Of a stretch of DNA of 44,679 bases, positions 222 to 37,893 are shown piece after piece. The translations under genes were made by a program, and so were the position numbers. Under the pieces are notes generated by a model. That model was not told the DNA's origin, searched no databases, and saw nothing but the letters and a program-made list of their open reading frames with translations. How positions within the stretch are numbered: the stretch's first letter is position 1; each line of letters starts with the position of its first letter. The stretch comes from a virus: positions 1 to 44,679 of the IMG/VR virus record IMGVR_UViG_3300007540_000025, one strand, 5' to 3'.

Positions 222-3200
222 CTATTTTTTATTTTCTCTTCTTTTTCGTCTTCTACGTTGTGCTATCCTTCTTTTTTCTCCACGTTTAGGTGGCGCACCC
301 CATATAGTTTGCTTTAAAGAAAACTCAGTTCCTGGTATAGATGCGTTAGGTGTAAGTGCAGCAGCAAATCTTCTGTATTTTTTATCACCTGCTCTACCAT
401 ATTTACTATCTCTTTTGTAAGTACTGCCTGGTACATTAAGCATTCCTTGAATACCATAAGTAACAGCTTGTACTAAATTAGAAAATACAGCAAACGATGG
501 CATTACAATCATTTTACCTAGCTTATCAAAGTTAGTTAATAATAACATGTCTTTTAATAGTTTTTCTATAAACTCGTTATCATCTGCTGCAGCCAATAAA
601 GAAGCCACCACTATAATACCATATGAACCTCTATGTAATCTTTGTAAAGCTTCGGTCTGAGCTCTGGTTAAACCACTTTGTACGTATGTTGGATTGTTTT
701 TATAAGACAACAAATTAGGGTTAAATAAAAATTTCATGTACTGTAATGGGTTAATGTACTGAGCTAAATTTACCTTGTCGTTCTTTTTTGCAAAAGACGA
801 TAATGTTCCTGAGTAAATTTGACCATAGTCATCCATCCAATCAGAATATCCTGCTTTACCAAATTTTTCTGTTACGAATGTAGGAAACCATCTTTTGAAC
901 TGTGTAACAGCTGAACCTAACATAAACGTTTGTAAATACCTTTGGTCTAAAGGTGAATAACCTCTACCTTGCATGTTTTGTACACGACGTTGTATTTTAG
1001 CTACCTCATCTATAGTAAGCACGTTTTCTTTATCAACAATAATTAAATTACCAGATTCATCTAAGTCATAAGACTTCCATTGTTCGTCTGTTAGTTCACC
1101 TATAAATTGAACTTCTTGTATAAAACGTTCAGCTCTTACCATAGGGTAAAATAAAATTTTATCTAAGTATGTATCATATTTAGCACCTTCAAGTTGTTCT
1201 TCTGGTCTATATGTCAAGATACCAAACTCTTCAAGTAACAGTTTTGTTTTTCTAGAGTCTTTCTTACTCCACATAGTACCTTCTCTAGCTAAACCAAATG
1301 AACGCATATGAGCTCTAGTAAAGTTTACTGTACCTTGAGATTTCCATGCATTGTATTTACCTATAGCAATATTAAACATTGCTGCAGTAGTGTTAATACC
1401 TAAACCAATACGCATAGTTGTATTAACAAGTTTAGAAACTATAACTCGCTCTGCTTCCAAACCTGTAAGAGTTTCTTTTGGTCGACCTTCTATAAAAGAC
1501 TCTAGCATTACTTTTTGTAAATACTTTATAGAATTATCTCTATTACCACCTTCATTAGAAAGAAATTGTTGTGCAGAGCTTATTAAAAATTTATATTGGT
1601 CAAAACCTTGGAAATTTGGTAGAGTATATTTTGGATTGTCTACCTTGTTTTGTTTTTCAATTTCCATCATTCTTTTAGAACTAAAAGAACTAGTAACTAC
1701 TGAGCTTTGTAGTCTTTTTAAACTTTCGACATCACCTGTAGGTTTTGTATATATTAATCTGTTGTAGCCTTTAGCACCTTGGTATTCTGTTCCGTGTTGG
1801 AATACCATTGTTTTGACATAATTAAAAACTGCATATTGCAAATTACCACTTGCTAAATAAGCAGCTCTATGTGAACGCTCACTAAAATATCTGTTAAACG
1901 TTCTATTTTCTGTTGTAGCTACTTCATTAGAACCGTTTTCAACTTTAATTTCATTTCCTAAAGCATCAATACCATTAGTTAAATAGTTGTTTGCTAATGT
2001 TTTAAGGTTAGATAAAGTTTTTATTCTATTGATTTGTGAAAATTTATTTAAATCTATAGTATCTGCGTAGTCAGGATTTTCTTTTATAAACTGTGCAGCT
2101 TCTTCTTTTGTTGTGCTATACATAGCCTCAAACTCACCAAACGTTTTCTTTTCTATTTTACCATTTAGAATATTAAGACCTTCTACTGTAACGCTTTTAA
2201 TGTCTGCGTTTCTTCCAAACATTTTATAATACACACCATAAATACCTCTACGTCTATAGACTTCAAGCGTACTAGCATCAGCAACAGGAGCATACAGCTC
2301 TCTTTTTTGTATAAGACCTTTAAAGTCTGCTAACTCTCCATAAAACTTTATGTATCTAGAAATTACTTTAGCGTAGTTTAACTCAGCTTCTGAAAGCTCT
2401 ACACCCATAGTTTTAGGGTTCTTAATATCATTCTTTTTTGTAAAGACTTGATTGTTTAATTGATGTATAGTTTCGTGCTTAACTATTTTTTTTCTAGTTT
2501 TTTTATCTTTATATACAACAACTCTAGACTTTCTAACAAGTAAGTTTTCAAATAACTTATCGTTTATTGATTCTTGTGATTTTAAAGACTTTATAATTGG
2601 TATTCTAGATACAAGTTTAGTAAGACCTGCTAGTAAAAATTTATCTTTATACAACATGTTGTAAGCTTCATTAAGCTCGTCTGTTGCTCTTTTTAAATCT
2701 TTATGCATTAAGGTATTACCACGCTCTAACTGTCTTCTAGTCGAAGCTAAAGTAGGATGGAATTGACCAAAGTCACCTGGACTCAAAAATAGCTGTCCAA
2801 TAGTTATATCTTTGTGCTGTTCATCATCTGTTACTTTATTAAGTAGTGTTGCTGCTTGTTCTGATTTACCCCAAAACACCTGTTGTTCGTGTGTCAAAGC
2901 TTGACCATATTGAAACTGCAACTCTCTAGATATGTTTTGTATAGCTAGTGGATGTAATCTCTGTATCTCATTATAATATTCTGTTAACACACCAGGCAGC
3001 TCTTTGATGTATTTTTGGTCTACTGCTTTACGTTCTTCTTCTTTTAACTGAGAAAGCTCTTCATCAGCACGTTGAATTTTGTTATCTCTATTTATTCGAC
3101 TTCTAACATCTTGTACAATAAGTTTGTCTTGATTGTATTTAGCATAGTCAGCTTCAAACTTAGCATGACCTTTAGGGTCTTTTGTTTTCAAATCATCAAG

Positions 3201-6200
3201 ACTGTAATTCCATTTTGTGTAACCTCTTGTAGAAGCAAAATCTGCTTCCGAGAAGTTTGAGTCTTGACCAAACATAAAACTACCTGCATCTTCAGAGTAA
3301 AGATAAAAAGTACCTTCATCTTTTAATTTTTGATAATTTTCTTGTATAGCACCTGAATAAGTTAAAATTGAACCTAATTCATTCATAGAGTAATCACCGT
3401 AAAAGAACGTGCTGTTATACCCTTTAAATTTACCATCTTCATATTTAGCTAAATCTACAGCAAATACGTTTTTACCAGATGTACTTTCTTTACCGAGTTT
3501 GTTAATTTCACTTTTAGATGCCTTTCTTACGTATGGCTCTACAGTTGTAATTTCATTTTCTACTGAAAGCATTCCAACACTAGAAGTGTTTTCATAAGAC
3601 TCACTAGTAAAGTTTCTTCTTGGACTTGTTAAAACACCTTTAGAGTTTTCTAAAGTTACGTTGTAAGAATGAAAAGCATCTTGCAATCCTTTTGTATCGT
3701 AAGAGTTTATAAGCTCTAAAAGTCTATACGTAGAAGCTGCTGGGTCTGATAATACATCTAATACATTCTTCTTTATTTTTTTCGAAAGAGTTTGGTCTAC
3801 ATTTAATGTATCACCTAACAAATCATTAGCGTGCAATAATTCGTTTTGTATCGTATTTTCATTTCTTTTATCGTATACAAAATTAGAAGTTCTTTTTACT
3901 TCATTTCTTACACTTGAAGGTAAGAATGGTAGTAAAGATTTGTTTTTACCAGAACCTAATTTGTTATTAAAGAATTCATATGAAATAAAATAGTTTTGTA
4001 ATTTTACATCTAACTCTAAAAAAGCTTTTCTTAATTTGTTTAGAATAGGTTCAGAAGATATTGAATCGTAATAACTTTTTTGTACAGATACGCTATTTAA
4101 ATAAAACGATTCTGAAACAGAGCCTTTTCTTCTAATAACTTTTCTATCGTTTTTAAAGTCTAATATTTTAATAAAAGCATTACCTCTATTTCTTTTATAT
4201 AACTCGTAAGCTTTTTTATTTATTAGTTTTATTTTTTCTTCTTCAGCTTTTATTGTGTTACCATGTTTCTGTTCAATGTTATCTAATTGGTCTTTTCTAA
4301 CTGGTCCATATTGATACATAAGGTCGGTAAAATTTAAACCACCCTTACCGTCTGATATAAATTTTTCAGGGTTCATATACACAGCCATTTTATTGTAATG
4401 CAAGGCGTTGTATAAAAGTTGAACGTTTTTAGATTTAGACAAGTCTAGTGTCTTGCTCATTTGAGTGTACACAAAATCTACTTCTTCTTCAGAAAAAATA
4501 TCTTCTTGTTTTAGTTTTTCTGTAAAGTCTAAAAATATATCGTACTGAGAAGATAGGTATGAGTTTGTCTTAAACATCCTAGCCATATCTTTTTGCCTAG
4601 ACATAGCTGCTTCAAATTCTTTGTTTAAAACTACAGCTTCAAAATAAGAAGTAGGAGTTTTAGAATCTAAAGATGACATCTGTTGGAACAACCTCATGTC
4701 TTTACCAAATCTATCTAACGCTATAATAAATGAATTAAAAGCGTCTGGGTTTTCTTCAAACCCTTCTTTTAAGTCTATAGTGTAAGCATCTGTAACATCA
4801 GCTACTCCATAATTAACTTCGCTTCCTGATGCTGCTATTAATGCTTCTTTTTTTGTATAATCATTTTTACCTACTAACTGTATATACTTAACATACGTAG
4901 GGTCAAACATTACATCTAAAGCAGTTTCTAAAGATAGACCCATACGCAACATAAATGCGAAATGATTTGCACTTTCTTCCTGCATACGGAATCTTGCTCT
5001 ATTACCGTATTTACCATCATCTATTATAAAGTTTAGAAATTGCGCATACGACAACCAAACTTGTTCATTGTTTGTATTTACGTTTTCTATAAAGCCTAAA
5101 CGCTCTAACTTGTTTACATAATTACCATTACTATCTTTAACAGTATTTAGAAACGCCATGTTTATAGGCTCTCCTTGTTTGTTATCTGAATAGTATATTT
5201 TAGTTTTAGCGTTAGGATTACGTACTGCGTTTATACCAGAAGCAAAGTAATTAAAAGCTCTGTTTAAAGACGCTACAATACCTAGCATTACATTGTTACC
5301 AATAAACCTTTCTTGTATAGATTCTTCATCTAAAAAACTTAAGTCGTCTAATTCTCTATCAAACTCTTGTAATGCTTTTGCATCATCAGATAGAATAGTA
5401 CGTATATGGTTAAGGCCTTTATCTGTAATAGTAGAATCAAAATCTACCTCTTGCATAATAAGAGGAAGTATCTCTTCTTGTTGGTAAAGATTTACTATGT
5501 AATCTAAAAACTCATTTTTATAAAGCTCAGATTGTTTAAGGTCTTTACCTTTATTTTTAACAGCTAAATGTAATTGGTCTCCATCTTTATCAGAACCCAT
5601 AAGAGTTGCATGTCTAGAAGGAATAATTACAGCATTACCTGCTCTACTACCTAATACATGTTTAACTTTATATACAATACCATCACCTATTTTAGAATCT
5701 GGTATACGTGCTGCAAAGATAAAATCTCCTACTTTTACGTCATGTACTTTAGCTAAGTTAGCAGGTATAACTATTTCAGCAACCTCTACCTTACCGTTCT
5801 CTACTCTATAAGACTTTAACCCTTCATCTTCTATTAAGTTTTCAGAGCCTATCTTATAGTTAAAAGCTATATCTGCCATCTCTGTAGATAGAGTACCAGA
5901 CATTCTAATTTGCATTACTTTCTTTTTAAAGGTAGATGCAATAGCATTATTAAATAATTGCTTGTTTCCTATAAAATGAGCTCCAAACTCTTCAATGCTT
6001 AAGTTATCTAAATACGTATAAAATTCTTTTGACTTCTCATCATATAGTGTTTCTAACGGCTTGCCTTCCATGCTTTCTTGATATTGTGCTATAAGCACTT
6101 TACCAAGTATAGAGTTAAGCTCTTCTGCTACAGCAGTACCAGACATGTCATTTAAGCCTGCGAACGACTTAACAGTGTTAAGAGTAGCGTAATTAGCTAT

Positions 6201-9200
6201 CCATTGTTTAGATAATATAGAGTCTCTATTGTTATTATCTAGTTTGTTTTGTATACCAAAAAACTCTCCGTCAAAACCATACATTACCTGTCCGTCTTTT
6301 TCAAATTGATACAGTCTATTCTGTTTCATCTTGAACTCAAAACTAGCATTTAATCCAGGTCTTTGTAGCTGCGTGTTTTCACTATCAACAATGTCTTTAA
6401 CCTGCTCCATTGTATACGAAGCTTTGTCCATTTGTGACTGTAACAAACCACCTTTAATAGCACTAGTAAAATATATAACAGGTATTGTATTTGTACCTCT
6501 TAAATCTTGTGAACGCTTCTTTATAAGTTTTTGTAACAACTCTATGTTTGCTCTAGACTCTTTAGGTGCATTCTTAATAAACTCTGGTGTAATTAAGTGT
6601 GTATGACTCTTAAGGTATATAGGTAGTCTATGGTGTGATTTAACATTTTTACCGCCCTCAAAATCTCCCATCTGTTTTGCGAAAGATGTATTATCTAGGT
6701 TCTGTCCGTAGTATAAACTTTTAAGGTTTTTACCTATATCTTCAAACTCTCCATATTGTGTATTAAGCATTTCTGCATGCCCTGGTAACATATACGATGA
6801 TGAATCTGCTACTTGTAATCCATTTGGTGTTGGGTCTGTAATGAATATAGGCTCTATACGCTTACCATGTGCACTTATTAGTGGTGATGATATACCTTTA
6901 ACACGTTTTGGTAAATCTGTTTTTACACGCTTACCATTACTTTCATATGTTTGTGCGTATGTTCTATTGTAATATAAATCAGAATACAAAAATTTATTTA
7001 CAAAGTTTATTTTAACAGCTGCTTCTAATGCTCTTGTTATTTTTGCATCACTGTAGTTTTTAGATAAGAAATCATAAGACTCAGTATCTCGAAGTTTTTG
7101 TATTAAAGCATTAACTTCATTGTCAACATTTAAACTTCTTCCTACCTGTTCTTCTACTATACTAAGTTGCTTGTTAAGTTCTGCTCCTTTCCAGAGAATA
7201 CCATTATTAACATAATATTGTCTACTAGAATCACCCATCTGTGCAACAAAATGATTGTAGTGGTCAGCTTTTGCTATTACTCTTTCTATTAAATGTAATA
7301 CTCTAGCTGTAGTAAATACTTCAGGTTTAACTTGTGAGTTTTTTCTTCCTCTATTTACACGACCATCATACACACCAAGATTAGTTACAATCTCAGGTAT
7401 ATAGTTTTTAAATCTAATTTGTTGAGCTATAATATTGTGGCTAAACATTTCTCCAAACATACTATTACTCATCTCAGGCAACATGCGTTGCAGGTAATCT
7501 AAGTTATTATGTATGTATGCAGACTTAGTAAATAAATCTACAGAATCACCAGCAGGGTTAAGAACCATGCCTGACATACTAGCCTTGTTTTGTAATTGAT
7601 AAAACGCTGTATACATGTTTTTGTAAAGTTCTTTGTATACAACATCGTAAGATTTTTCTTTTCCTCTAATAGGATATGCGTAATTTAACTTACCTTGAGA
7701 ATAAAGTCTAACTGCTCTTTGGTTTCTTTGCTCTTCAGAAAGAGTTTTGTACTCATTCCAATCTTCATTTAAATATTTTTCTAGTAAACGTGCGTCATTT
7801 AATGTTATGTTTTTTACTGAATTTATTACCTTTCTTATAGTTGGCCCTAAATATTGTAATTTATCATCTTTCGTATAATAACTATAATCAAATTTACCTA
7901 TAGATTGTAAAAGGTTGTCAATACGGTCATTAGAAAAATATCTATCTAAGGTAATACCTTCTAAGTATATTCTAGATAAATCTTCTACTTTAAGAGCAGA
8001 TTGATTACTACGAAACTTTTCATAGAACTCATCTACAAAATTTAATATTAAAGAATTTTTTTCTGCTTGTGTTGCATTTTTCATCTTAACTAATGTTATG
8101 ATGTTCTCAAGCATTTTAGTATTTTTCTTACCATCACTAAGCGTGTTTAGACTTTTTTCTGTAAAGTCTTGTATTTTACGCTTTTCAGCTATAGGTACTG
8201 TGTTTTCTAAACTAACTGAACCATCACTACCTATTTTCCATGAGGTAGCACGTTCCATTGTAAATGAACGGAAGTAATGCCACATAGAACGAATAGCATC
8301 TTCACCATTTATCATATCACCTTTAACAAACATTGCAAAACTAGCAAGTAAGTCTTCTTGTGTATTAATATCAGAAACACCTTCTTTAGGTTTTTTAGAT
8401 AAATGAAAGTTTATAATATCATCTAATTTATCTTTAAATAACTCAAAGTCATGTTTAGTACCGTCTAATGCCGTAGCTAATGCTTCGTATACATTGTATT
8501 TAGATTTAATATCTTCAATGGTACTAAACTTATTGTAATCATCTAGAAAGTCTTCTAGTACTTTAGTAACTCTACCATTTATTTTACGGCTAAACTCTTC
8601 AGATATAATTTTACCAAAAGATGTTTCAGCTTCCGTTTCAAGCTCTTCGTATTGTTCAGACGTAATATCTTTTTGTTTATACCTTTCTTGTATTTCTTGC
8701 TTAATTGTTCTAACATATGCAGCCTTAAGCATGTTATCTACTTCCGCTGCATTTTTATTATAAAACTTACTTACGTTATCAGCGCTTAATTCATCTACAC
8801 TATATGTAGCATCAGATAATATTTTTTGTAAGACTTCACCTTTAGTAGACATTACTTCATCTAACATGTCTGCTTGTTCAAAACTATCAGGTTCTGCTGT
8901 TAACTTATTAACCATTCTATCAACTATAGTTTTAGCATTTCTGTTAACTATAGTTAAATTATCTTCAGCATGCATAGATTGCTCTATAAGCGAGCGAGCA
9001 TTATCACTTTCATATTTGCTTAAATAAAAAGTTTCATTAGATTTTTTAAACGATGAGTAACTTCTTTCTTTGTTAGGCTTGTTAAACTCTTTCTGAGCAT
9101 TTTCAAGCATAGTAGAGAAGCTTTCATTGTATAGAGTAGGAAAGTTATTCTTTATTATTTTTTTGGCAGCCTTGGAGCTTATTTTGTCTTTAATCATTGT

Positions 9201-12200
9201 CCAAGCCTTTCCTAATGCTTTTTTGTATTTTTCGTTTTGTTTACCTGGTAAGAAATAATCTACATTATTTGCTATATGAAATCCACCTGCTGTAGCTAAC
9301 GCTTCGTTGGCAATAAGGTCTTGCTTGCTGTCTGCAAGTATTGAATACCCTCTATTAGATAATATAGAATTTGCATAACGTACATACTCTTCATAAGAAG
9401 ATTGTTTATATGTATTTTGTATGCCTTCAGACTTAGCCCATTGCATGTAGTTTTTTACATCACGCTCATTAAATACTATCTTACTTAGCGTTTGAACTTT
9501 GCCATTGCGTATATACTTTAACTTAGAATGGTTTTTTGCTTTTACTTTTTTAAATATAGGTTGTTTAACAATTTCTTTTAATAAAGCTTTTATTTCTGGA
9601 CTACCTGCGAATAACTCTTGGTACACGTGCCATTTTTCATGAACAAATACTTCTTGAGTTGCTTCATCTGGATTAATAAATATAGATAAACCTAAAGCTG
9701 CACCTTGAGCACCACGACCATGTGGGTCAGTTAGATTGTTATCAAAGTAAATACCTATATCAGGATTTTCTTCCATAAAGTTTTGTGACCAAACATATCT
9801 TTGCCCATCTGTAAGTACAGATTGATAAACATCTTTACCTGTCTTACTATCTCTACCAACATATCTTCTACCAAAAAATTGTTTAGCTTTTGACTTTGCT
9901 ATATTATTTTCAGCTTTTCTTTGTGGTTCTATTTGGTCGTTAGAAAAACTGTCTTCCATATTCCATTCGAAATCAGTTTGCTCTCGCTCACCTTTTTCAA
10001 TCTCTTCCTGCTTAACTCTTTCTAATTCTTGTTGCTCTTGAAAATCAGCTTCTTCTTTAAGTAGCTTTTCGTCATTTTTTCTTTTAACTTCTTGTAAAAT
10101 TAAATCAGCTTTTACATCTGTAGTTGTAACATTACCTGCTTCGTCTACTTTTTTGATTTGATATTCTTGAAAGCCATCAACTACTTTTGTTTTCTTTTGA
10201 AAAACTAAATCTTTACTTTCTTTATCAGTGTTTTCCGTTTGTTTAAAATCTGCACCAACTTTTTCTTGAGCAGATGTTAACCTTTCTTCTGCTTTTAAAT
10301 TATCAAATCGTTTTTGATTGTTTTCTACAAGAGTGTTCTCTTCTTGTGTTAAAGGAGAGTTTGCTTTTTGTTTTTGTATTATTTGTGTTAACTTAGGGTC
10401 TACTTCTTTTGTTAGTCTTTCTTCCTGTAAACGTGAAGAATTTTCAGCAAATATATTTTTAATATTATCGTCTGACCTGCTAACTATCTGTTTGTAAGCG
10501 TTCTCTAAATTTGTTAGTTCATTATCAATACCAGCAATGTTTTTCTTTTTTTGTGCTACTGATAATGGTAAGTCTTCAAGTTTTGCTTTTTCGTTTTCCC
10601 AGTATTCTTTTTTCTCGTTGTATGTTTTTTCGTTTTTTTGTTTACTTAACAAAGAAGATAACAACACTCCTTGCTCTTCATCATTCATTAAAGCATCAGG
10701 GGCAAGTTTTTTTACTTCTTCATATTGCTTAATTGTTTCTAAGTATAATTTTTTTTGTTGCTCATTTATACCATTACCTTCTTGCGATAAAGACTCAACG
10801 TATTCTACAAACCTATCAGACTGTCCTTTATTAACAGAACGTATCATATACGCTTTTAGTTGATTATCTTTCATAGCTGCAAGCTCATCTGATGCACTAG
10901 CCATAACCGTACGGTTTTCAGGAGTGCCTCTTTCGTCTTCCATGTTATAATCCTCTACGTCTTGCTCTAGTATTTCTAAACGCTCTTGAACTAAACCATC
11001 TCTTGCTATCTGCTCATTGAATAAATATTTACGTTCTGCAGCTACATCTATAGAAGTTTTAGCCCCTGTAACAGCTAAAGAAGATGTAAATGCAATTACC
11101 CTAGTTGGTAAAGCTTCTTTGCTATTAAAGTAATCTAAATAGCTCATAAAAGGTTTACCTTTAGCTTCAGCTATTCTTCTTCTAGTAGACCAATCTTGAA
11201 AAACTTCCTGAAACTGTTCAAATACACCATCAGTTAAAGCGTAACCTGCAACTTTAGCAGACTGTTGCATTAAACGCTTCATACCAGGCGCTTTCATTTT
11301 TCTCATGTTTTTAGTAAAAGGATTTAAAGCTTTTGCTGTTCCTGAAAACATAGCAAGTTGTAATCCATCTACCGCCATCCATGATAGGTTGTCCATGAAT
11401 ACATCATGAGCTGCTACAGAAGCTAACTCTTTAGGTACTCCTTGTTCGATAGCATCATTTAAAGTTTGTCCTGCAATAATAGCACCTTCCGACATGTTTC
11501 CTGCTGCTGCACCACCCCAGAATTGAGCCATGCTTTTAGAAAACTTAGAACCTTTTGTAGCTGTTATAAGTCCTGTTTTTGCAAGTTTTTGTCCTATACT
11601 TAAACCTCTAGCTGCACCAAGTAATCTAGCACCTTTATATAAAGCGCCTGCTGCTCTAGCACCTTGAGTACCAGGTATTAAGAATGTTAATGAAAAAGGT
11701 AAAGCTCTTGCCCAATGCGTAAGCCAAAAATCACCGTCAAACATATCTGACCATGTAACATCTTGCACATCTTTTAATCCAGGTACGCTTTCACCAAACT
11801 TTTGTAGCTCTGAACCCCAAGAGTGTAATTGGTCTGCGATAGGAGTATGAACGTCAATACCGTATATTTCTTTTGATATTTGCTTTTCTGTTAATAAGCG
11901 TGTATCTGGACTTTCATTAAACCAATCAACTCCATCTCCAAAACCTTCAAATACATCACCTAAACCAGCTATTAAAGAACGACCTAACATTTCTCCACCA
12001 CCCATTTGATAGTCTACAACATTACCTTCTTTTTCTTCAGTAGAACCTAGTTTTTGGCGTTGTATATAATCATTAACTTTATTTTGAGTTTCTTCATCAT
12101 AACCATAACCAAATCTATCAATAGCTCCAGAGCCATCGATAGGGGTTATATTAGTGTCAGATTCAGGTATATCGTTATTAGACTTTAAAGGTTGAGATAA

Positions 12201-12257
12201 AAAACTTGAATCGTATTTTTTAATATCATCACCTGGCTTACCTATATCGTTGCTCAT
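222..12257 (-). CDS. Giant virion-associated RNA polymerase, 4011 aa, with HExxH peptidase motif
   Basis: This is the largest gene of the window, uninterrupted, starting at the ATG at 12257 one base after the previous stop. Residues 2223-2228 read DKDGDQ and are followed by LHLAV. This matches the catalytic DxDGD loop of the second double-psi beta-barrel of multisubunit-type RNA polymerases (bacterial beta' DFDGDQMAVH) and of single-chain phage polymerases such as crAss-like phi14:2 gp66. About 290 residues earlier, FTSAIKGG with K1935 fits the first barrel and its conserved lysine. Residues 873-877 read HEKWH, a zincin-type HExxH motif. The first 120 residues are polar, 185-220 is hydrophobic and alanine/glycine-rich, and roughly 420-770 is charged helical, coiled-coil-like sequence. 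The last 20 residues are extremely basic. Its place at the end of the internal virion protein genes suggests that it is packaged and ejected to transcribe early genes. The polymerase call rests on motifs; the other domains are unassigned. Confidence 0.82.
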   Translation of the reverse strand: MSNDIGKPGDDIKKYDSSFLSQPLKSNNDIPESDTNITPIDGSGAIDRFGYGYDEETQNKVNDYIQRQKLGSTEEKEGNVVDYQMGGGEMLGRSLIAGLGDVFEGFGDGVDWFNESPDTRLLTEKQISKEIYGIDVHTPIADQLHSWGSELQKFGESVPGLKDVQDVTWSDMFDGDFWLTHWARALPFSLTFLIPGTQGARAAGALYKGARLLGAARGLSIGQKLAKTGLITATKGSKFSKSMAQFWGGAAAGNMSEGAIIAGQTLNDAIEQGVPKELASVAAHDVFMDNLSWMAVDGLQLAMFSGTAKALNPFTKNMRKMKAPGMKRLMQQSAKVAGYALTDGVFEQFQEVFQDWSTRRRIAEAKGKPFMSYLDYFNSKEALPTRVIAFTSSLAVTGAKTSIDVAAERKYLFNEQIARDGLVQERLEILEQDVEDYNMEDERGTPENRTVMASASDELAAMKDNQLKAYMIRSVNKGQSDRFVEYVESLSQEGNGINEQQKKLYLETIKQYEEVKKLAPDALMNDEEQGVLLSSLLSKQKNEKTYNEKKEYWENEKAKLEDLPLSVAQKKKNIAGIDNELTNLENAYKQIVSRSDDNIKNIFAENSSRLQEERLTKEVDPKLTQIIQKQKANSPLTQEENTLVENNQKRFDNLKAEERLTSAQEKVGADFKQTENTDKESKDLVFQKKTKVVDGFQEYQIKKVDEAGNVTTTDVKADLILQEVKRKNDEKLLKEEADFQEQQELERVKQEEIEKGEREQTDFEWNMEDSFSNDQIEPQRKAENNIAKSKAKQFFGRRYVGRDSKTGKDVYQSVLTDGQRYVWSQNFMEENPDIGIYFDNNLTDPHGRGAQGAALGLSIFINPDEATQEVFVHEKWHVYQELFAGSPEIKALLKEIVKQPIFKKVKAKNHSKLKYIRNGKVQTLSKIVFNERDVKNYMQWAKSEGIQNTYKQSSYEEYVRYANSILSNRGYSILADSKQDLIANEALATAGGFHIANNVDYFLPGKQNEKYKKALGKAWTMIKDKISSKAAKKIIKNNFPTLYNESFSTMLENAQKEFNKPNKERSYSSFKKSNETFYLSKYESDNARSLIEQSMHAEDNLTIVNRNAKTIVDRMVNKLTAEPDSFEQADMLDEVMSTKGEVLQKILSDATYSVDELSADNVSKFYNKNAAEVDNMLKAAYVRTIKQEIQERYKQKDITSEQYEELETEAETSFGKIISEEFSRKINGRVTKVLEDFLDDYNKFSTIEDIKSKYNVYEALATALDGTKHDFELFKDKLDDIINFHLSKKPKEGVSDINTQEDLLASFAMFVKGDMINGEDAIRSMWHYFRSFTMERATSWKIGSDGSVSLENTVPIAEKRKIQDFTEKSLNTLSDGKKNTKMLENIITLVKMKNATQAEKNSLILNFVDEFYEKFRSNQSALKVEDLSRIYLEGITLDRYFSNDRIDNLLQSIGKFDYSYYTKDDKLQYLGPTIRKVINSVKNITLNDARLLEKYLNEDWNEYKTLSEEQRNQRAVRLYSQGKLNYAYPIRGKEKSYDVVYKELYKNMYTAFYQLQNKASMSGMVLNPAGDSVDLFTKSAYIHNNLDYLQRMLPEMSNSMFGEMFSHNIIAQQIRFKNYIPEIVTNLGVYDGRVNRGRKNSQVKPEVFTTARVLHLIERVIAKADHYNHFVAQMGDSSRQYYVNNGILWKGAELNKQLSIVEEQVGRSLNVDNEVNALIQKLRDTESYDFLSKNYSDAKITRALEAAVKINFVNKFLYSDLYYNRTYAQTYESNGKRVKTDLPKRVKGISSPLISAHGKRIEPIFITDPTPNGLQVADSSSYMLPGHAEMLNTQYGEFEDIGKNLKSLYYGQNLDNTSFAKQMGDFEGGKNVKSHHRLPIYLKSHTHLITPEFIKNAPKESRANIELLQKLIKKRSQDLRGTNTIPVIYFTSAIKGGLLQSQMDKASYTMEQVKDIVDSENTQLQRPGLNASFEFKMKQNRLYQFEKDGQVMYGFDGEFFGIQNKLDNNNRDSILSKQWIANYATLNTVKSFAGLNDMSGTAVAEELNSILGKVLIAQYQESMEGKPLETLYDEKSKEFYTYLDNLSIEEFGAHFIGNKQLFNNAIASTFKKKVMQIRMSGTLSTEMADIAFNYKIGSENLIEDEGLKSYRVENGKVEVAEIVIPANLAKVHDVKVGDFIFAARIPDSKIGDGIVYKVKHVLGSRAGNAVIIPSRHATLMGSDKDGDQLHLAVKNKGKDLKQSELYKNEFLDYIVNLYQQEEILPLIMQEVDFDSTITDKGLNHIRTILSDDAKALQEFDRELDDLSFLDEESIQERFIGNNVMLGIVASLNRAFNYFASGINAVRNPNAKTKIYYSDNKQGEPINMAFLNTVKDSNGNYVNKLERLGFIENVNTNNEQVWLSYAQFLNFIIDDGKYGNRARFRMQEESANHFAFMLRMGLSLETALDVMFDPTYVKYIQLVGKNDYTKKEALIAASGSEVNYGVADVTDAYTIDLKEGFEENPDAFNSFIIALDRFGKDMRLFQQMSSLDSKTPTSYFEAVVLNKEFEAAMSRQKDMARMFKTNSYLSSQYDIFLDFTEKLKQEDIFSEEEVDFVYTQMSKTLDLSKSKNVQLLYNALHYNKMAVYMNPEKFISDGKGGLNFTDLMYQYGPVRKDQLDNIEQKHGNTIKAEEEKIKLINKKAYELYKRNRGNAFIKILDFKNDRKVIRRKGSVSESFYLNSVSVQKSYYDSISSEPILNKLRKAFLELDVKLQNYFISYEFFNNKLGSGKNKSLLPFLPSSVRNEVKRTSNFVYDKRNENTIQNELLHANDLLGDTLNVDQTLSKKIKKNVLDVLSDPAASTYRLLELINSYDTKGLQDAFHSYNVTLENSKGVLTSPRRNFTSESYENTSSVGMLSVENEITTVEPYVRKASKSEINKLGKESTSGKNVFAVDLAKYEDGKFKGYNSTFFYGDYSMNELGSILTYSGAIQENYQKLKDEGTFYLYSEDAGSFMFGQDSNFSEADFASTRGYTKWNYSLDDLKTKDPKGHAKFEADYAKYNQDKLIVQDVRSRINRDNKIQRADEELSQLKEEERKAVDQKYIKELPGVLTEYYNEIQRLHPLAIQNISRELQFQYGQALTHEQQVFWGKSEQAATLLNKVTDDEQHKDITIGQLFLSPGDFGQFHPTLASTRRQLERGNTLMHKDLKRATDELNEAYNMLYKDKFLLAGLTKLVSRIPIIKSLKSQESINDKLFENLLVRKSRVVVYKDKKTRKKIVKHETIHQLNNQVFTKKNDIKNPKTMGVELSEAELNYAKVISRYIKFYGELADFKGLIQKRELYAPVADASTLEVYRRRGIYGVYYKMFGRNADIKSVTVEGLNILNGKIEKKTFGEFEAMYSTTKEEAAQFIKENPDYADTIDLNKFSQINRIKTLSNLKTLANNYLTNGIDALGNEIKVENGSNEVATTENRTFNRYFSERSHRAAYLASGNLQYAVFNYVKTMVFQHGTEYQGAKGYNRLIYTKPTGDVESLKRLQSSVVTSSFSSKRMMEIEKQNKVDNPKYTLPNFQGFDQYKFLISSAQQFLSNEGGNRDNSIKYLQKVMLESFIEGRPKETLTGLEAERVIVSKLVNTTMRIGLGINTTAAMFNIAIGKYNAWKSQGTVNFTRAHMRSFGLAREGTMWSKKDSRKTKLLLEEFGILTYRPEEQLEGAKYDTYLDKILFYPMVRAERFIQEVQFIGELTDEQWKSYDLDESGNLIIVDKENVLTIDEVAKIQRRVQNMQGRGYSPLDQRYLQTFMLGSAVTQFKRWFPTFVTEKFGKAGYSDWMDDYGQIYSGTLSSFAKKNDKVNLAQYINPLQYMKFLFNPNLLSYKNNPTYVQSGLTRAQTEALQRLHRGSYGIIVVASLLAAADDNEFIEKLLKDMLLLTNFDKLGKMIVMPSFAVFSNLVQAVTYGIQGMLNVPGSTYKRDSKYGRAGDKKYRRFAAALTPNASIPGTEFSLKQTIWGAPPKRGEKRRIAQRRRRKRRENKK

Positions 12258-30116: not shown

Positions 30117-31916
30117 TTATTTTTGTTTGTAAGGTACTAATCTACCGTTTTCCCTTTTGTAATAAACGAACCCTAAGTTTTTCTGTTCAGATTCCCCAAA
30201 TTTAACACTTTTTTCGAATATGTCTATGTCATGTATCAAACACAGCCCAAAAGCTATTACACGGTCTGTATTGCGTACTCTGTAGTTTGCTAATTCGTCT
30301 AGTAAATCTATAAAATATATATCTTCACAATTTTCTTCTACATACTTTTGTAAATATTGCTCCATTACTGCTTTTGTATGTTTATTCATTTGAATACCAT
30401 ACCTATTTCTATTAACAGTTTTTGGAGAATGCGCTGCAGTAGGTCTTTCCTTTAAATATTTTAAACCACCCATTCTTTTAAAATAATCAATAATACCAAT
30501 TTTTGTAAACTCTATTAGCATTTGTGAATTATAGTACACAGCAAGTTTAAGACAACCATCCCAAAACTCTTCTGCAGTTTTTGGTCTTTCTGTGTATTCA
30601 GCTACTACGTAGTTACTTGGCATGTCTGTACTATAGAATCTTCTATATATTATAGCTGAACCTAATGAGTCAGTAGATGCTTGGTCTTGGTCATATGAAT
30701 CAATACCGCCTATATCTAAACCTTTGTAACCTAATTGTGGGTGTGCTAAAATTCTATATGGACCATCTCTGTCTGGAATCCATGTAACATTCATGCCTTC
30801 GTCTTGCCATTCTAAATACCCTTTTTGTATTTGATTTGTTAAGTCACTGCTAGACAGTATGTTACTTCTTTGGTCGTTTATTTTAGCAACATTAAACATA
30901 GAAGATTTAGTTTGCAAGAATGCTTCTTCTACCGTTAAAGGATAATTTTGTATATGAAGATTAAAACCTTTTTGATTGTCAGATGATTTTAATTGGTCTC
31001 GCTCTTTCATAAGTTTAGCTTGAGCGTTGACTTCGTCTGATATACCTGTTTTAGTATCAAAAAAACCATGATAACATTTTGTAGCAGGAATAAACATAGG
31101 TAGTAGATTAAATGCATCAGCGTTGTAATACATATCCATAAAATCTTTAGATGATGTTTCTATATCACCACCTGTTCCACCAATAATAGGTACACCAAAT
31201 TGCACATCACCATCCATGAAACATGCTTTAGATGACATGTATGCATTTAGAAGCTCTTTAAACTCACCTGCTTCTTCAAATACCATAACAGATAAACGCT
31301 CACCCTTAAATACTTCTGGGTTGCTCATTGTACGGCAATGTATAACAGACTGAAAACCACCTACTTCCCATTTACCTTCTCTGTTTTTTGACTTATAACC
31401 AGAACGTATAACTTCGTCTTGGTCTTTTAATACAGAATGTCTAAATATATTAGTTTGATTGTATAGCCCTTTTTTTACTTTTTGAAAGAAAGAGTCTGCT
31501 GTTACCTGTAACCCAGCTGCTATACCTACTTCGTTATGAGGATAAAATGTATATTCTTGCGCTAACATACCAGAGTTCATATAAGAGAACCCCTTATCCC
31601 TAGCCTTAATAACAATCATACCCTTACCTTCGTCTTTACAAGTCTCGAATAGATTAAAGTACTCTCTATCCATATCTCGATACCATGGTGCTATAAGAGA
31701 TTTTCTACCACCTTTCTCGCCAGAGTTACCAAGTATTTTATAGAAATTAAGATAATAGTAATGTTTACCTGATATGGCATCCATACCTTTAGGTTTGTAA
31801 CCGTTTTTACATCTTTCAATTTGCTCATCCCAAAACTCTCTATACATAACACTTTCAGGATTTACGTCTGGTATTCCTTCGTGTATTATAGGAGCATACT
31901 TTTTTATGTTACCCAT
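30117..31916 (-). CDS. terL: Terminase large subunit, 599 aa
   Basis: This is the packaging motor ATPase and headful or site-specific nuclease. Residues 104-112 (KARDKGFSY) form the adenine-proximal Walker A variant common in phage terminases, and 208-217 (LSVMVFEEAG) are Walker B with catalytic Glu. The C-terminal half opens the RNase H-like nuclease with GGIDSYDQD (D407 as first metal ligand), followed by beta strands (SLGSAIIYRRFY) and a later acidic region (YFIDLLDELANYRV). Its length is usual for the family. It overlaps the 177-aa gene by 8 bases and is followed directly by the portal gene, the standard head-gene order. Confidence 0.92.
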   Translation of the reverse strand: MGNIKKYAPIIHEGIPDVNPESVMYREFWDEQIERCKNGYKPKGMDAISGKHYYYLNFYKILGNSGEKGGRKSLIAPWYRDMDREYFNLFETCKDEGKGMIVIKARDKGFSYMNSGMLAQEYTFYPHNEVGIAAGLQVTADSFFQKVKKGLYNQTNIFRHSVLKDQDEVIRSGYKSKNREGKWEVGGFQSVIHCRTMSNPEVFKGERLSVMVFEEAGEFKELLNAYMSSKACFMDGDVQFGVPIIGGTGGDIETSSKDFMDMYYNADAFNLLPMFIPATKCYHGFFDTKTGISDEVNAQAKLMKERDQLKSSDNQKGFNLHIQNYPLTVEEAFLQTKSSMFNVAKINDQRSNILSSSDLTNQIQKGYLEWQDEGMNVTWIPDRDGPYRILAHPQLGYKGLDIGGIDSYDQDQASTDSLGSAIIYRRFYSTDMPSNYVVAEYTERPKTAEEFWDGCLKLAVYYNSQMLIEFTKIGIIDYFKRMGGLKYLKERPTAAHSPKTVNRNRYGIQMNKHTKAVMEQYLQKYVEENCEDIYFIDLLDELANYRVRNTDRVIAFGLCLIHDIDIFEKSVKFGESEQKNLGFVYYKRENGRLVPYKQK

Positions 31917-33637: not shown

Positions 33638-33657
33638 GAGTCTTTTGTCTTTTACAA
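33638..33657 (+). promoter_or_regulatory. GAGTC motif copy 1 (putative early promoter)
   Basis: This is GAGTCTTTT, eight bases (GTCTTTTA), then CAACTAAA. The motif starts exactly 35 bases before the ATG at 33673, the same distance as copy 2. It is one of five plus-strand copies between 33638 and 35655. It does not resemble the host TAnnTTTG element, so a phage-specific polymerase or factor may recognise it. Confidence 0.6.
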
Positions 33658-33672
33658 CTAAATTTATTTATT

Positions 33673-33897
33673 ATGTTAAAACAAACAGTAAGTGACTTCA
33701 TCACAGCTTTACATTTTTGTGAAGCACATGAACAAGAGTTCCAACAAGCGTTAGCACAATGTGCTGACGAGTATGAAGAAGAAATAATCACTGAAAATTG
33801 GTGTGCATTTCATCCTAAAGAAGAGTTGCTATTTAGAGGTTATTCTAAACGAGTAGCTAGTCTAGCATACAAGCTGTGGGCTTGGGCTAGGTTGTAA
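33673..33897 (+). CDS. Small early-region protein, 74 aa
   Basis: The start is taken at the ATG at 33673 (MLKQTVSDFITAL), because the open frame upstream runs through the motif. It is acidic, with two cysteines and an aromatic-rich C-terminal half (LAYKLWAWARL). Predicted helices cover most of it. The family is unknown. It has its own upstream GAGTC motif and is followed at once by a 12-bp hairpin, so it appears to be an independent early transcript of the sort that often encodes host-takeover factors; that is a guess from position. Confidence 0.55.
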   Translation: MLKQTVSDFITALHFCEAHEQEFQQALAQCADEYEEEIITENWCAFHPKEELLFRGYSKRVASLAYKLWAWARL

Positions 33898-33925
33898 TCA
33901 TTAGGGGGCGAGAGCTCCTTAGTGA
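33898..33925 (+). terminator. Hairpin after the 74-aa gene
   Basis: Twelve pairs (TCATTAGGGGGC with GCTCCTTAGTGA, three of them G-T) close a GAGA tetraloop directly after the stop codon. No T-run follows, so termination is uncertain; mRNA end protection or processing is equally possible. The 3' arm continues into a 16-base sequence repeated after the next gene. Confidence 0.55.
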
Positions 33926-33958
33926 TAGTGAATATATGCATCACATTGTTACACCTAA

Positions 33959-33978
33959 GAGTCTTTTATTTCTTGCAA
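33959..33978 (+). promoter_or_regulatory. GAGTC motif copy 2
   Basis: This is GAGTCTTTT, eight bases (ATTTCTTG), then CAACTAAA. It lies exactly 35 bases before the ATG at 33994. The following bases up to the start codon are also similar to copy 1 (CAACTAAA and TATTATG), suggesting a promoter plus short leader unit that has been duplicated. Confidence 0.6.
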
Positions 33979-33993
33979 CTAAAACTATATATT

Positions 33994-34248
33994 ATGAACA
34001 ACAATGCACCAACAATGTCTATGTACATTATCGACGAATTAATTCGTAGCTTGACTGATGAACAACTAGAGCATCATATCTATACTGCAGATTTCTTAGA
34101 TGTATTTGATTACGACAAAACTCAAACACAAGAAGATGCATACAGTGAGATGATAGTTCTATGTAAGCGAGAGCAAGAGCGACGCGAGAAGCTACGAAAC
34201 AGACTTAGCGAAGTTGACGAAGCTGACTTTGATGACTTACCGTTCTAA
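33994..34248 (+). CDS. Small acidic early protein with SSB-like C-terminal tip, 84 aa
   Basis: The ATG at 33994 (MNNNAPTMSMYII) is chosen by analogy with the gene before. The body is helical and charged (IIDELIRSLTDEQLEHHIY, later LCKREQERREKLR). The last residues, DEADFDDLPF, are almost identical to the acidic tip of single-stranded DNA-binding proteins (bacterial SSB ends DDDIPF; the phage SSB-like protein at 43238 ends DDLPF). The rest does not look like an OB fold. It could dock on the proteins that bind SSB tips, or be a cut-down SSB-interacting factor. The body family is unknown. Confidence 0.6.
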   Translation: MNNNAPTMSMYIIDELIRSLTDEQLEHHIYTADFLDVFDYDKTQTQEDAYSEMIVLCKREQERREKLRNRLSEVDEADFDDLPF

Positions 34249-34255
34249 GATTGTT

Positions 34256-34275
34256 ACTAAGGGGAAACCCTTAGT
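34256..34275 (+). terminator. Hairpin after the 84-aa gene
   Basis: ACTAAGGG and CCCTTAGT pair fully (8 bp) around a GAAA tetraloop, starting 7 bases after the stop. The 3' arm runs into the same 16 bases (CCTTAGTGATAGTGAA) as after the preceding gene. No T-tract follows. Confidence 0.55.
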
Positions 34276-34332
34276 GATAGTGAACATATATATAGGCACA
34301 GCCGTAAGTTATATCGGAAACCGTAAGCTACG

Positions 34333-34352
34333 GAGTCTTTTCTCTTATACAA
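34333..34352 (+). promoter_or_regulatory. GAGTC motif copy 3
   Basis: This is GAGTCTTTT, eight bases (CTCTTATA), then CAACAGAC. Directly upstream and sharing its first G is a small hairpin, CCGTA-AGC-TACGG (34321-34333). Unlike copies 1 and 2 it has a long leader (about 90 bases) before the ATG at 34442. Confidence 0.55.
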
Positions 34353-34370
34353 CAGACATTCGGTTTGTTT

Positions 34371-34428
34371 GTAGTACGTATACCGAGCGTACTACTTCTC
34401 TTATCATTTGTACATGTCGGTGTGTACA
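34371..34428 (+). promoter_or_regulatory. Two leader hairpins before the 232-aa gene
   Basis: GTAGTACG (34371-34378) pairs with CGTACTAC (34388-34395) over a 9-base loop. TGTACA (34409-34414) can pair with TGTACA (34423-34428). They lie between motif copy 3 and the ATG at 34442, in what would be the mRNA leader, and could stabilise the message or serve translational control by the gene product. Confidence 0.45.
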
Positions 34429-34441
34429 CATTACTTTTAGT

Positions 34442-35140
34442 ATGGCTGGAAAAAAGCAAACTAAAACTACCACTTCTAACGAAGTGAAGACTGCAAATAC
34501 CGAGGTGGAGATTGCAGTAGTTGAAAATGTAACACCTAGTTACATTATGGAAACCATAGGATTAGAGGAAATCTCTATGTATGGTGACCCTGCGAACGAG
34601 GGCGAGTATCCTTCCTTTCGTGTTCTAAACATTCTACCTAAGAAAGGTAAGAATGGTCTCAATCTATTCATTAGACTTGAGGCAACTTCTATCCGTACCA
34701 CAGACGAATACTTTGTGTACGAAGAAGAACGCCCTATCAACGGGGTTAAGAACCTAGGAGAGCTCAAAATCGAACTTGCTAAGCGTATGGCTCAGTTGTG
34801 TGTCCAAAAAGGACATCACTTCTTGCCTCAGTACGCTAACTTGTTCGCTAACCTCAAGAGACGTGGTTGGACTCCTGACAAGTTAATGATGAATTATCTA
34901 CCTTCTAAGATTATCAAGAAGTTAGGTCACATCATCGCTGACTCAGGTCTTCAGGAAACGTTCCTGAAAAACGACCAACTAGACATTACTAAGCTAGTAG
35001 GTCAGTTCGTCTCAGCTCGTATCTCGGAGAATGGTATCCTGATGTCCCTATCGGGCGAAGCTCAGGAGAACAGCTCTTCGGGTAGCACCACTCAGCAGAG
35101 TGACGTGCTAACAGACGACTCAGGATTCGAGTGGTCCTAG
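34442..35140 (+). CDS. Abundant early protein, possible ssDNA-binding type, 232 aa
   Basis: The start is the ATG at 34442 (MAGKKQTKTT); the open frame reaches back to 34214 but that part overlaps the previous gene and the motif. After a K/T-rich start comes a beta-rich section (EGEYPSFRVLNILPKKGKNG, LNLFIRLEATSIRT), then a helical half. A serine/threonine/glutamine linker leads to an acidic end, DDSGFEWS. Globular domain, flexible linker and acidic aromatic tip is the layout of ssDNA-binding proteins, but I see no definite OB-fold motif. The gene is clearly richer in G+C than its neighbours (many CTC, CGT, GGT and ACC codons), suggesting codon selection for high expression. Its own motif, structured leader and strong terminator agree with this. 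Confidence 0.6.
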   Translation: MAGKKQTKTTTSNEVKTANTEVEIAVVENVTPSYIMETIGLEEISMYGDPANEGEYPSFRVLNILPKKGKNGLNLFIRLEATSIRTTDEYFVYEEERPINGVKNLGELKIELAKRMAQLCVQKGHHFLPQYANLFANLKRRGWTPDKLMMNYLPSKIIKKLGHIIADSGLQETFLKNDQLDITKLVGQFVSARISENGILMSLSGEAQENSSSGSTTQQSDVLTDDSGFEWS

Positions 35141-35150
35141 TAACTATTAA

Positions 35151-35180
35151 AGGGTGTGCCTTCGGGTGCACTCTTTTTTT
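35151..35180 (+). terminator. Strong rho-independent terminator
   Basis: AGGGTGTGCC (35151-35160) and GGTGCACTCT (35165-35174) pair with three wobbles around a TTCG tetraloop, followed by a run of T (to 35180). It lies 10 bases after the stop of the 232-aa gene and closes the early block. Confidence 0.9.
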
Positions 35181-35184
35181 AACC

Positions 35185-35194
35185 TTCACTATCA
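35185..35194 (-). repeat. Inverted copy of TGATAGTGAA element
   Basis: TTCACTATCA here is the reverse complement of TGATAGTGAA, which occurs directly at 33923-33932 and 34275-34284 within a 16-base identical sequence (CCTTAGTGATAGTGAA). Two direct copies and one inverted copy in 1.3 kb could be operator sites or remnants of duplication. Confidence 0.4.
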
Positions 35195-35400
35195 TATTAA
35201 GTAGTAGCTAGGCTGGAACGTCTACATATACAGTAGCATAACCATATACAGTACTGTAAACTTGTTTGTGTTTGTGTGTGTGTGGATATGTTCCAAACCC
35301 CTATAAACGACTAAAAAACGTACTAAAACGATAGTTTGTCTTAAGTATATTGCGATATGTACGTTGTAACTAGTTGATAAACAGTAGTTTAGACTTCGTT

Positions 35401-35420
35401 GAGTCTTTTCTCTTTTTCAA
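35401..35420 (+). promoter_or_regulatory. GAGTC motif copy 4
   Basis: This is GAGTCTTTT, eight bases (CTCTTTTT), then CAAGTTGC. It sits in the loop of a 9-bp inverted repeat (35381-35389 / 35428-35436). No clear gene follows closely; only a 39-codon frame starts at 35467. Confidence 0.55.
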
Positions 35421-35466
35421 GTTGCTTAACTACTGTAGAGCTTTGTGTTCTATTTAAGTGTTTAAG

Positions 35467-35586
35467 ATGTTATACATAGTATATAACCACTTACCCACCA
35501 AAGGTAGCGTTTTTATTTTAAACGTGCAACTCGCTACATACTCAATTATAAGTGTAATCTATTTATATTTAAGTGTTTGTCATTAA
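35467..35586 (+). CDS. Doubtful 39-aa hydrophobic ORF
   Basis: An ATG 47 bases after motif copy 4 opens 39 codons (MLYIVYNHLPTKG, then a hydrophobic end SIISVIYLYLSVC). Its C-terminal part could be a membrane segment. A frame this short in A/T-rich DNA may be chance; it is listed only because it follows a putative promoter. Confidence 0.18.
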   Translation: MLYIVYNHLPTKGSVFILNVQLATYSIISVIYLYLSVCH

Positions 35587-35635
35587 TTGACACTATCTTA
35601 CATGTTAATAAAATTAAATTATGTTGAGTCTTTTT

Positions 35636-35655
35636 TCTTTTGCAATACATGTTAT
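35636..35655 (+). promoter_or_regulatory. GAGTC motif copy 5, leader of the right-arm operon
   Basis: This is GAGTCTTTT, eight bases (TTCTTTTG), then CAATACAT. It is the last copy and about 190 bases before the first right-arm gene at 35844. If it is a promoter, the transcript begins with the structured elements at 35694-35814. A 16-codon frame from the ATG at 35659 could be a leader peptide. Confidence 0.55.
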
Positions 35656-36525: not shown

Positions 36526-36785
36526 TGGGTGCAATGAAAAACAAAGCAATACAAGAGAGAGAGGAATCATTACTCTCTCCATTGTTTGTTCCACATTTTT
36601 ACGAGGTAAATGATGTGCAGTACGAAGAACAACAAGCCGTACAAAGAACTATCCAAGAAGAGATAGAAGAAGAAAAGTTTATAAAAGAGTTTGTAAAAGA
36701 TAACAGAGCTCTTGTATTAAAACAAGCAACTGAATACGTAAAACAAAAATTAATCTATAAAAACAAAAACAAATGTGTGGAATAG
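36525..36785 (+). CDS. Unknown acidic helical protein, 86 aa
   Basis: This starts at the ATG overlapping the previous stop (TAATG). Glutamate/glutamine-rich helices cover most of it (QAVQRTIQEEIEEEKFIKE, then VLKQATEYVKQKL), probably a coiled coil. The last 13 bases overlap the glutamine amidotransferase start. No family is recognised. An internal ATG three codons later is an alternative start. Confidence 0.5.
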   Translation: MGAMKNKAIQEREESLLSPLFVPHFYEVNDVQYEEQQAVQRTIQEEIEEEKFIKEFVKDNRALVLKQATEYVKQKLIYKNKNKCVE

Positions 36786-37732
36786 TAGCTTACTCAGGTA
36801 AAGAAATGTCAATGAACAAACTAATGTTTGCAATGTTTGACAACGAAGAACGTGGTAGACATTCATGTGGTGTTTACACAGATAAAGAAGTATATAAAAG
36901 TGTTGGTACTACAGGTAATTTATTATCTATGATACCAAACAATACTTCTAAATTATTTATTGGACATACAAGATTCGGTACTCACGGTAAATTAACTGCT
37001 GAGAATACACATCCTTATGTAATCGGTAACTATATCGGTTGTCATAATGGTGTGTTAAATAACTATGATGAAATGGCTGATAAATACAACTTTGATAAGG
37101 TTGATGTAGATAGTAAAGCTATATACAATACGTTTAAATCTGCTGAAGACGGTGTAACTAACAATCATTACCAGACATTAGGTGAACATGGAGGTACGAT
37201 TAACGCTGTATGGACAGAAAATGATGGTAAACTTTATGTGTATAGACGTAATAACCCGTTGTTTGCTTTAACATTCGATGATGGTGTAATGTTTTCATCA
37301 AGAAAAGAATGCTTAGAAGTGCTCGCTGACCATCCAAGTTGTATAGATGAAGTGCCTACTGATATATTATTTGTATATAAAGATGGTAAATTAATTGACT
37401 CAATTGATATACCTGTTACTTACGTAGAGATACCTTATCAACGCACTTTAAATTGGACTGACTACTATGAAAATGACGTTAAGTCATCTAAAGAAGAAGA
37501 TAATTATGCAGAAAAGTGGTGGAATACATGGCAAACGCCAGTTAAAAATACAAATCAAAATCAAGATAACGAAACAGATTTTGATTTAGATGTACATTAC
37601 CGAAAAGTTGCATCTGGCTTAAGTGCTTTTAAAGAAGTTTTCAAAGATATGGAATACCACGGTTTCTTAGACCCAAATGATGTAAAAGAAATCGAATATT
37701 GCATTGAACACATTGAACTAGAATTAGTATAA
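36773..37732 (+). CDS. Class II glutamine amidotransferase, 319 aa
   Basis: This is an Ntn-hydrolase that takes the amide nitrogen from glutamine. MCGIVAYSG places the nucleophile Cys2 at the N-terminus after Met removal. RGRHSCGVYT (27-36), GHTRFGTHG (64-72, the glutamine-binding arginine) and CHNGVLNNY (90-98) are the remaining hallmark motifs of the purF/asnB-type domain. Only the glutaminase domain is present (about 210 residues), followed by a 100-residue acidic tail. There is no synthetase or phosphosugar domain. The partner that uses the ammonia is probably the amidoligase two genes later, as in phage gene pairs described for the amidoligase superfamily. The product modified is unknown. 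Confidence 0.85.
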   Translation: MCGIVAYSGKEMSMNKLMFAMFDNEERGRHSCGVYTDKEVYKSVGTTGNLLSMIPNNTSKLFIGHTRFGTHGKLTAENTHPYVIGNYIGCHNGVLNNYDEMADKYNFDKVDVDSKAIYNTFKSAEDGVTNNHYQTLGEHGGTINAVWTENDGKLYVYRRNNPLFALTFDDGVMFSSRKECLEVLADHPSCIDEVPTDILFVYKDGKLIDSIDIPVTYVEIPYQRTLNWTDYYENDVKSSKEEDNYAEKWWNTWQTPVKNTNQNQDNETDFDLDVHYRKVASGLSAFKEVFKDMEYHGFLDPNDVKEIEYCIEHIELELV

Positions 37733-37893
37733 TGTTGGAGAAGCTATTAACACTCTGCGCAGACGATAAGTTTGTCGCAGAGATGTTACTTTCAACTGAA
37801 ATGTTGGAAGAAAGAACAGGTTCAAATCCTGATACCGAGCAATTAAAAGAATTATTAATTAATATACAGAAGTTATGCCAGAAAATTGGTTAG
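37732..37893 (+). CDS. Small overlapping ORF between amidotransferase and amidoligase, 53 aa
   Basis: An ATG at 37732 overlaps the amidotransferase stop (TAATG) and its frame runs to a TAG at 37891-37893, overlapping the amidoligase start (37875) by 19 bases. This is the chained arrangement seen at every other junction of this operon. The peptide is acidic and helical (MLEKLLTLCADDKFVAEML, then EQLKELLINIQKL). It fills an otherwise unexplained gap, so it is probably real. No function is visible. Confidence 0.55.
   Translation: MLEKLLTLCADDKFVAEMLLSTEMLEERTGSNPDTEQLKELLINIQKLCQKIG

Follow-up and report, generated by a model that had tools for sequence, protein, structure and literature searches.

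The window analysed here is an entire linear virus record of 44,679 bases, and it contains one giant open reading frame (ORF) on the minus strand which, from the ORF listing and its translation, begins with an ATG and continues for 4,011 aa without an internal stop (Table 1). The genes that surround it are of podovirus type and have the features of Crassvirales, with Pfam matches to Crass_capsid (5.7e-30), CrAss_Ring_2 (3.2e-19), the crAss muzzle (7.7e-124) and the P22 portal, and with a gene order of capsid, ring, muzzle, cargo-position genes and then the giant ORF that is also the order found in phi14:2. For the terminase and portal, identity to the top crAss-like match is ~27-31%. The letters A, B and C are used for the three members of the crAss-like transcription block, with B being the polymerase.

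Table 1. Coordinates of the features of the giant ORF and of the repeated elements (window positions unless a locus is named)
Feature	Position	Strand	Basis
Whole ORF: A part, zinc-peptidase-like domain, RNA polymerase (B), C part in a single chain	222..12257	-	ORF listing, translation, relatives' single ORFs
A part, residues 82-499, homologous to phi14:2 g067 / crAss001 gp47 family	10761..12014	-	hhalign
Zinc-peptidase-like domain, residues 800-1050	9108..9860	-	invariant motif, model
HEKWH, residues 873-877	9627..9641	-	H873, E874, H877 invariant
E985, possible third zinc ligand	9303..9305	-	invariant
Modelled RNA polymerase core, residues 1560-2520	4698..7580	-	profile to 6VR4, AlphaFold, Foldseek
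K1935, conserved lysine of predicted first barrel	6453..6455	-	invariant 39/39
DKDGD, residues 2223-2227, catalytic aspartates of predicted second barrel	5577..5591	-	aspartates invariant 39/39
C part, residues 3605-3970, homologous to phi14:2 g065 / crAss001 gp49 family	348..1445	-	hhalign
Five copies of 20-nt element GAGTCTTTTnTCTTnTnCAA, candidate promoters	33638, 33959, 34333, 35401, 35626 (region 33638..35645)	+	pattern search
Related element AACTCTCTnnTTnnCTnCAA of relative G002	L029 12252-15358	-	pattern search

An earlier note on this DNA had proposed that the chain contains a single-chain, two-barrel RNA polymerase core of the crAss/phi14:2 type, picking out K1935 and the segment D2223-K-D-G-D. 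The ORF and both motifs are there as described, with FTSAIKGG beginning at residue 1930 and DKDGDQLHLAV at residue 2223, K1935 and D2223 lying 288 residues apart, and with ~1,900 residues of the 4,011-aa chain preceding the motif region and ~1,800 coming after it. The polymerase itself is borne out by profile comparison, hhalign, the predicted fold and the catalytic residues. With the lone 4,011-aa protein neither Pfam, PHROGs nor phmmer gave an RNA polymerase match, thus profiles were needed, and a single-sequence search of the PDB was also negative. A profile built from 26 core sequences (A4) matched 6VR4, the virion RNA polymerase of phi14:2, among the PDB sequences (E=5.2e-21) and matched the tail-tape-fused RNA polymerase of P23-45 weakly (E=5e-4), and hhalign against concatenated crAss blocks aligned residues 1813-2236 (E=1.7e-12). 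A single core sequence found cr4_1 by tblastn over the motif region (E=6e-5, 27% identity across 169 residues), with tblastn of the core and the C part against GenBank phages giving three remote matches or none.

The predicted structure points the same way. AlphaFold modelled residues 1560-2520 with a pLDDT of 83.0 and a pTM of 0.81, and strands are predicted around K1935 and around the DKDGD loop, as two barrels would give. The comparison with phi14:2 gp66 that the earlier note had called for was run on this model, and Foldseek placed 6VR4 first among PDB structures (E=1.6e-19, TMq 0.64), followed by QDE-1, RDR2 and P23-45 gp96, with many crAss-like proteins among the matches in BFVD. The polymerase of phi14:2 (Crassvirales, Steigviridae) comes first in the PDB both by sequence and by fold and has in common with the window protein the positions of the lysine and of DxDxD, the gene order and, as far as predicted, the two-barrel core, at an identity of only 10% in the structural alignment. 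Judged by its profile and its modelled fold, the core is a crAss-type RNA polymerase with two predicted barrels.

The residues expected to be catalytic were compared in a joint alignment of 39 sequences, comprising the 4,011-aa protein, 25 relatives and 13 crAss-like RNA polymerases. K1935, Q2003, R2184, D2223, D2225 and D2227 are invariant in 39/39, as is the aligned G-x-D-x-D-x-D motif of the crAss polymerases, the clade of the window phage having the variant D(K/L/M)DGD and the crAss-like polymerases D(F/Y)D(I/V)D. A further lysine, K2017, occurs in 22 of 26 clade members and in 0/13 crAss-like polymerases, so that the first barrel may not be alike in every detail in the two groups. Between the window phage and the relative G002 the core is 53-56% identical and the terminase 91% (window 4698-7580 and 30117-31916), thus the polymerase is changing far more quickly than the gene for packaging. 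Such fast evolution (53% in the core against 91% in the terminase) would suit an inactive relic in which the polymerase fold is retained for structure alone, but the catalytic aspartates, K1935, R2184 and Q2003 have not varied in any of the sequences aligned, and this explanation deserves hardly any credence.

The relatives were recovered from environmental metagenomes, being found through the portal and then by alignments; a search for related loci with a single core sequence found nothing. Eleven distinct relatives have the gene as a single ORF (4,048, 4,010, 4,032, 3,984, 3,926, 3,921, 3,927, 3,827, 3,939, 3,794 and 3,885 aa, stop to stop), with each of these full-length ORFs (3,794-4,048 aa) carrying HExxH and GSDxDGD. 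In the remaining relatives with long enough pieces the ORF is unbroken up to the fetched edge, many being over 3.6-3.7 kaa. The ORF is near-constant in length among relatives down to ~20% core identity, and as K1935 and the aspartates of the DKDGD motif are strictly conserved in the relatives they are not chance matches.

Whilst the flanks of the polymerase had been thought to hold possibly unassigned functions, this is now the case only for the long stretches in between, as both ends have homologues in crAss-like phages. For the A part, hhalign gave E=4.6e-10 for residues 85-499 and E=1.4e-8 for residues 82-198, with a reversed decoy at 0.1; for the C part it gave E=7e-12 against concatenated crAss blocks and E=8e-20 once more sequences were added, the homology covering the C-terminal ~370 residues. 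Residues ~500-800, ~1050-1550 and ~2560-3600 matched none of A, B and C significantly in profile alignment. The order A-B-C within the chain is the order of the separate phi14:2 genes. It is very probable that this single chain of ~450 kDa serves as virion RNA polymerase in a crAss-like podovirus that is uncultured and branches deeply, the chain being arranged as A, zinc-peptidase-like domain, B and C, with this reading being based on the homology of the three parts, the catalytic residues, the predicted polymerase fold and the fusion throughout the clade.

The zinc-peptidase-like domain follows the A part and precedes the polymerase, and its residues H873, E874, H877 and E985 are invariant in the clade wherever the region is present, the last possibly binding zinc. 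The label of peptidase is putative and comes from the HExxH motif, as Pfam gave only weak metallopeptidase matches in this region and the model of residues 800-1050 (pLDDT 77.5) had no significant fold match in the PDB. HExxH is found near the same junction in several crAss A proteins, and the annotation of the p-crAss A protein gives it a fused zincin protease. Profile alignment to the crAss zincins gave a weak match (E ~1e-3, 22% probability), thus a common origin of the domain rests on motif and position. Its role may be either self-processing or the opening of a path through the envelope.

The translated chain might undergo cleavage. As a polyprotein it would be cut by the peptidase-like domain at assembly or ejection, freeing A, B and C, and the fusion would be merely genetic. 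The invariance of HExxH (873-877) and E985 in the clade, the position of the domain ahead of the polymerase and the occurrence of HExxH near the junction in crAss A proteins, including the zincin-fused one of p-crAss, are all consistent with this; however, HExxH is kept also in Crassvirales where the genes are separate, hence the motif does not go with the fusion in particular, no site of cleavage was recognised in the chain, and the domain model matched nothing significantly in the PDB. A polyprotein is considered unlikely.

Comparison with the surveyed records shows how the block is divided in other crAss-like phages. It consists of three genes in phi14:2, crAss001 and DAC15, of an A+B gene and a separate C in cr4_1, cr1_1, cr50_1, cr6_1, cr130_1 and Fpv1, and of A and a B+C gene in p-crAss, cr3_1 and jaberico, with the A+B gene alone seen in cr10_1; ProJPt-Bp1 has several separate large ORFs. 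The three proteins of phi14:2 (1,797, 2,180 and 1,421 aa) have DFDID in the polymerase, whereas the window phage has one chain with the clade motif D(K/L/M)DGD, and at 4,011 aa this chain is ~1.4 kaa shorter than the three combined (5,398 aa). The A+B chains of Suoliviridae (cr4_1 gp26 with 4,491 aa, cr130_1 with 5,801 aa, cr50_1 with 4,774 aa) resemble the window protein in having A fused to the polymerase and HExxH ahead of it, and Fpv1 (4,401 aa) likewise has the A part and polymerase in one chain. Where C was seen in these phages it is a separate gene of ~1,400-2,100 aa, whereas the window protein includes C and yet is the shorter chain. The B+C chains of Intestiviridae (p-crAss with 4,091 aa, cr3_1 with 4,245 aa, jaberico with 4,098 aa) share with it the fusion of the polymerase to C, and their A protein has HExxH, but A is a separate gene where in the window protein it is fused. 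The earlier view that the chain is larger than the crAss-type examples does not hold, as crAss-like polymerase chains of 4,091-5,801 aa exist, the longest being the A+B chain of cr130_1, and such chains reach ~6,000 aa according to a review (PMC10136315).

A giant virion chain is also found in the Thermus phage P23-45, where gp96 (5,002 aa) is a tail tape measure fused to a virion RNA polymerase (PMC10770324). It has a single-chain two-barrel polymerase and a metallopeptidase domain (PMC10770324), of which the window protein has predicted counterparts, with weak profile and fold matches to its polymerase, but P23-45 is long-tailed with the polymerase at the N-terminus of the tape measure, whereas the window phage has podovirus-type genes and a polymerase in the middle of the chain between A and C. 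Phi17:2 (epsilon) was considered as an earlier case of full fusion and set aside, since the family profile matched none of seven proteins taken from the virion region within its first 50 kb. No description of the full A-B-C fusion was found in the limited set of literature searched; the injected crAss-type polymerase is known, and what appears to be new is the full fusion of the polymerase with both partner proteins across a clade.

The giant gene occupies the place of the crAss cargo genes. Homologues of the chain were found in virions according to the MS/MS notes of the phi14:2 record, and crAss001 virions contain gp47, gp49 and gp50 as cargo that is thought to cross the tail partly unfolded (PMC10172136). 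From this analogy we infer that the 4,011-aa protein is packed in the virion and ejected. Another explanation would be an early RNA polymerase that is synthesised in the infected cell and stays out of the virion, and single-chain two-barrel polymerases of the non-virion kind are known, such as P23-45 gp64 (PMC10770324). Against this, the gene ends the structural and cargo block, coming behind the muzzle and the cargo-position genes just as it does in phi14:2 and crAss001, and in those two phages the counterparts of each of the three parts belong to the virion (by the MS/MS notes for phi14:2 and by PMC10172136 for crAss001), so that a non-virion enzyme appears very improbable.

A candidate promoter of the virion polymerase is a repeated 20-nt element, GAGTCTTTTnTCTTnTnCAA. 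With up to 3 mismatches allowed it has five sites in the window, each of them on the plus strand and where the rightward genes begin, and at two sites an ATG lies ~16 nt downstream of the element. In G002 the related AACTCTCTnnTTnnCTnCAA is present at six sites of corresponding strand and place, with seven matches within 3 mismatches in the 19.9 kb searched, and the same sequence, GTGTTCTATTTAAGTGTT, comes after one element site in the window phage and one in G002. Five matches were reached in 0/100 shuffles for the window and seven in 0/200 for G002, figures that are flattering as both patterns were picked after the repeats had been seen. A pattern search of more distant relatives did not find the element. 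In the region upstream of its terminase, relative G013 carries a repeat of its own in four copies (GTTGTTCTTTTT...; L091 4360-5444), perhaps the counterpart of the early element in that phage.

For a packaged polymerase a mechanism can be proposed by analogy with crAss001 and phi14:2, the polymerase of the latter producing early RNA in a rifampicin-resistant manner (PMC10136315). The chain would be packed in the capsid, would cross the tail partly unfolded and then refold, and the refolded polymerase would transcribe early genes without the host polymerase, with the repeated 20-nt elements ahead of the rightward gene block as possible starting points. Fusion would set a 1:1:1 ratio of A, B and C and their shared delivery. 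A more elaborate proposal is that the unprocessed ~450 kDa chain acts as one machine, in which the N-terminal part would dock at or insert into an envelope channel, the peptidase-like domain would help to open the path, and the tethered polymerase would transcribe clade-specific early promoters during DNA entry, thereby helping to pull the genome in; this is considered unlikely. The virion polymerase reading extends the crAss type to a clade for which no close phage relative was found in GenBank, and offers a natural construct with the entire ejected transcription machinery in one chain and a compact set of conserved parts. It also offers a clean way to learn whether an ejected polymerase makes the passage intact or undergoes processing, along with a candidate promoter for the purified enzyme.

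The position of the clade was assessed with a tree of the RNA polymerase, in which a branch with 100/100 support splits its 26 members from the 13 crAss-like polymerases. The tree is unrooted, is of the polymerase only, has some long branches and leaves out the zeta and epsilon groups, and did not place the clade within a named Crassvirales family. Environmental phages outside the crAss assemblage were seen in the terminase tree of Yutin et al. 2021 (PMC7886860), and the clade may belong among them. A scan of genome contigs gave no relative, thus the host could not be named. The largest IMG/VR records of the clade are 66-71 kb, and in one relative (G015, 67,808 bases) the terminase gene is divided between the two ends of the record, pointing to a genome of ~68 kb in this clade that is circular or permuted. 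The window also carries a glutamine amidotransferase-like gene (36773-37732) followed by an amidoligase gene (37875-39299), a pair that resembles the adjoining aminotransferase and amidoligase genes g040-g041 of phi14:2.
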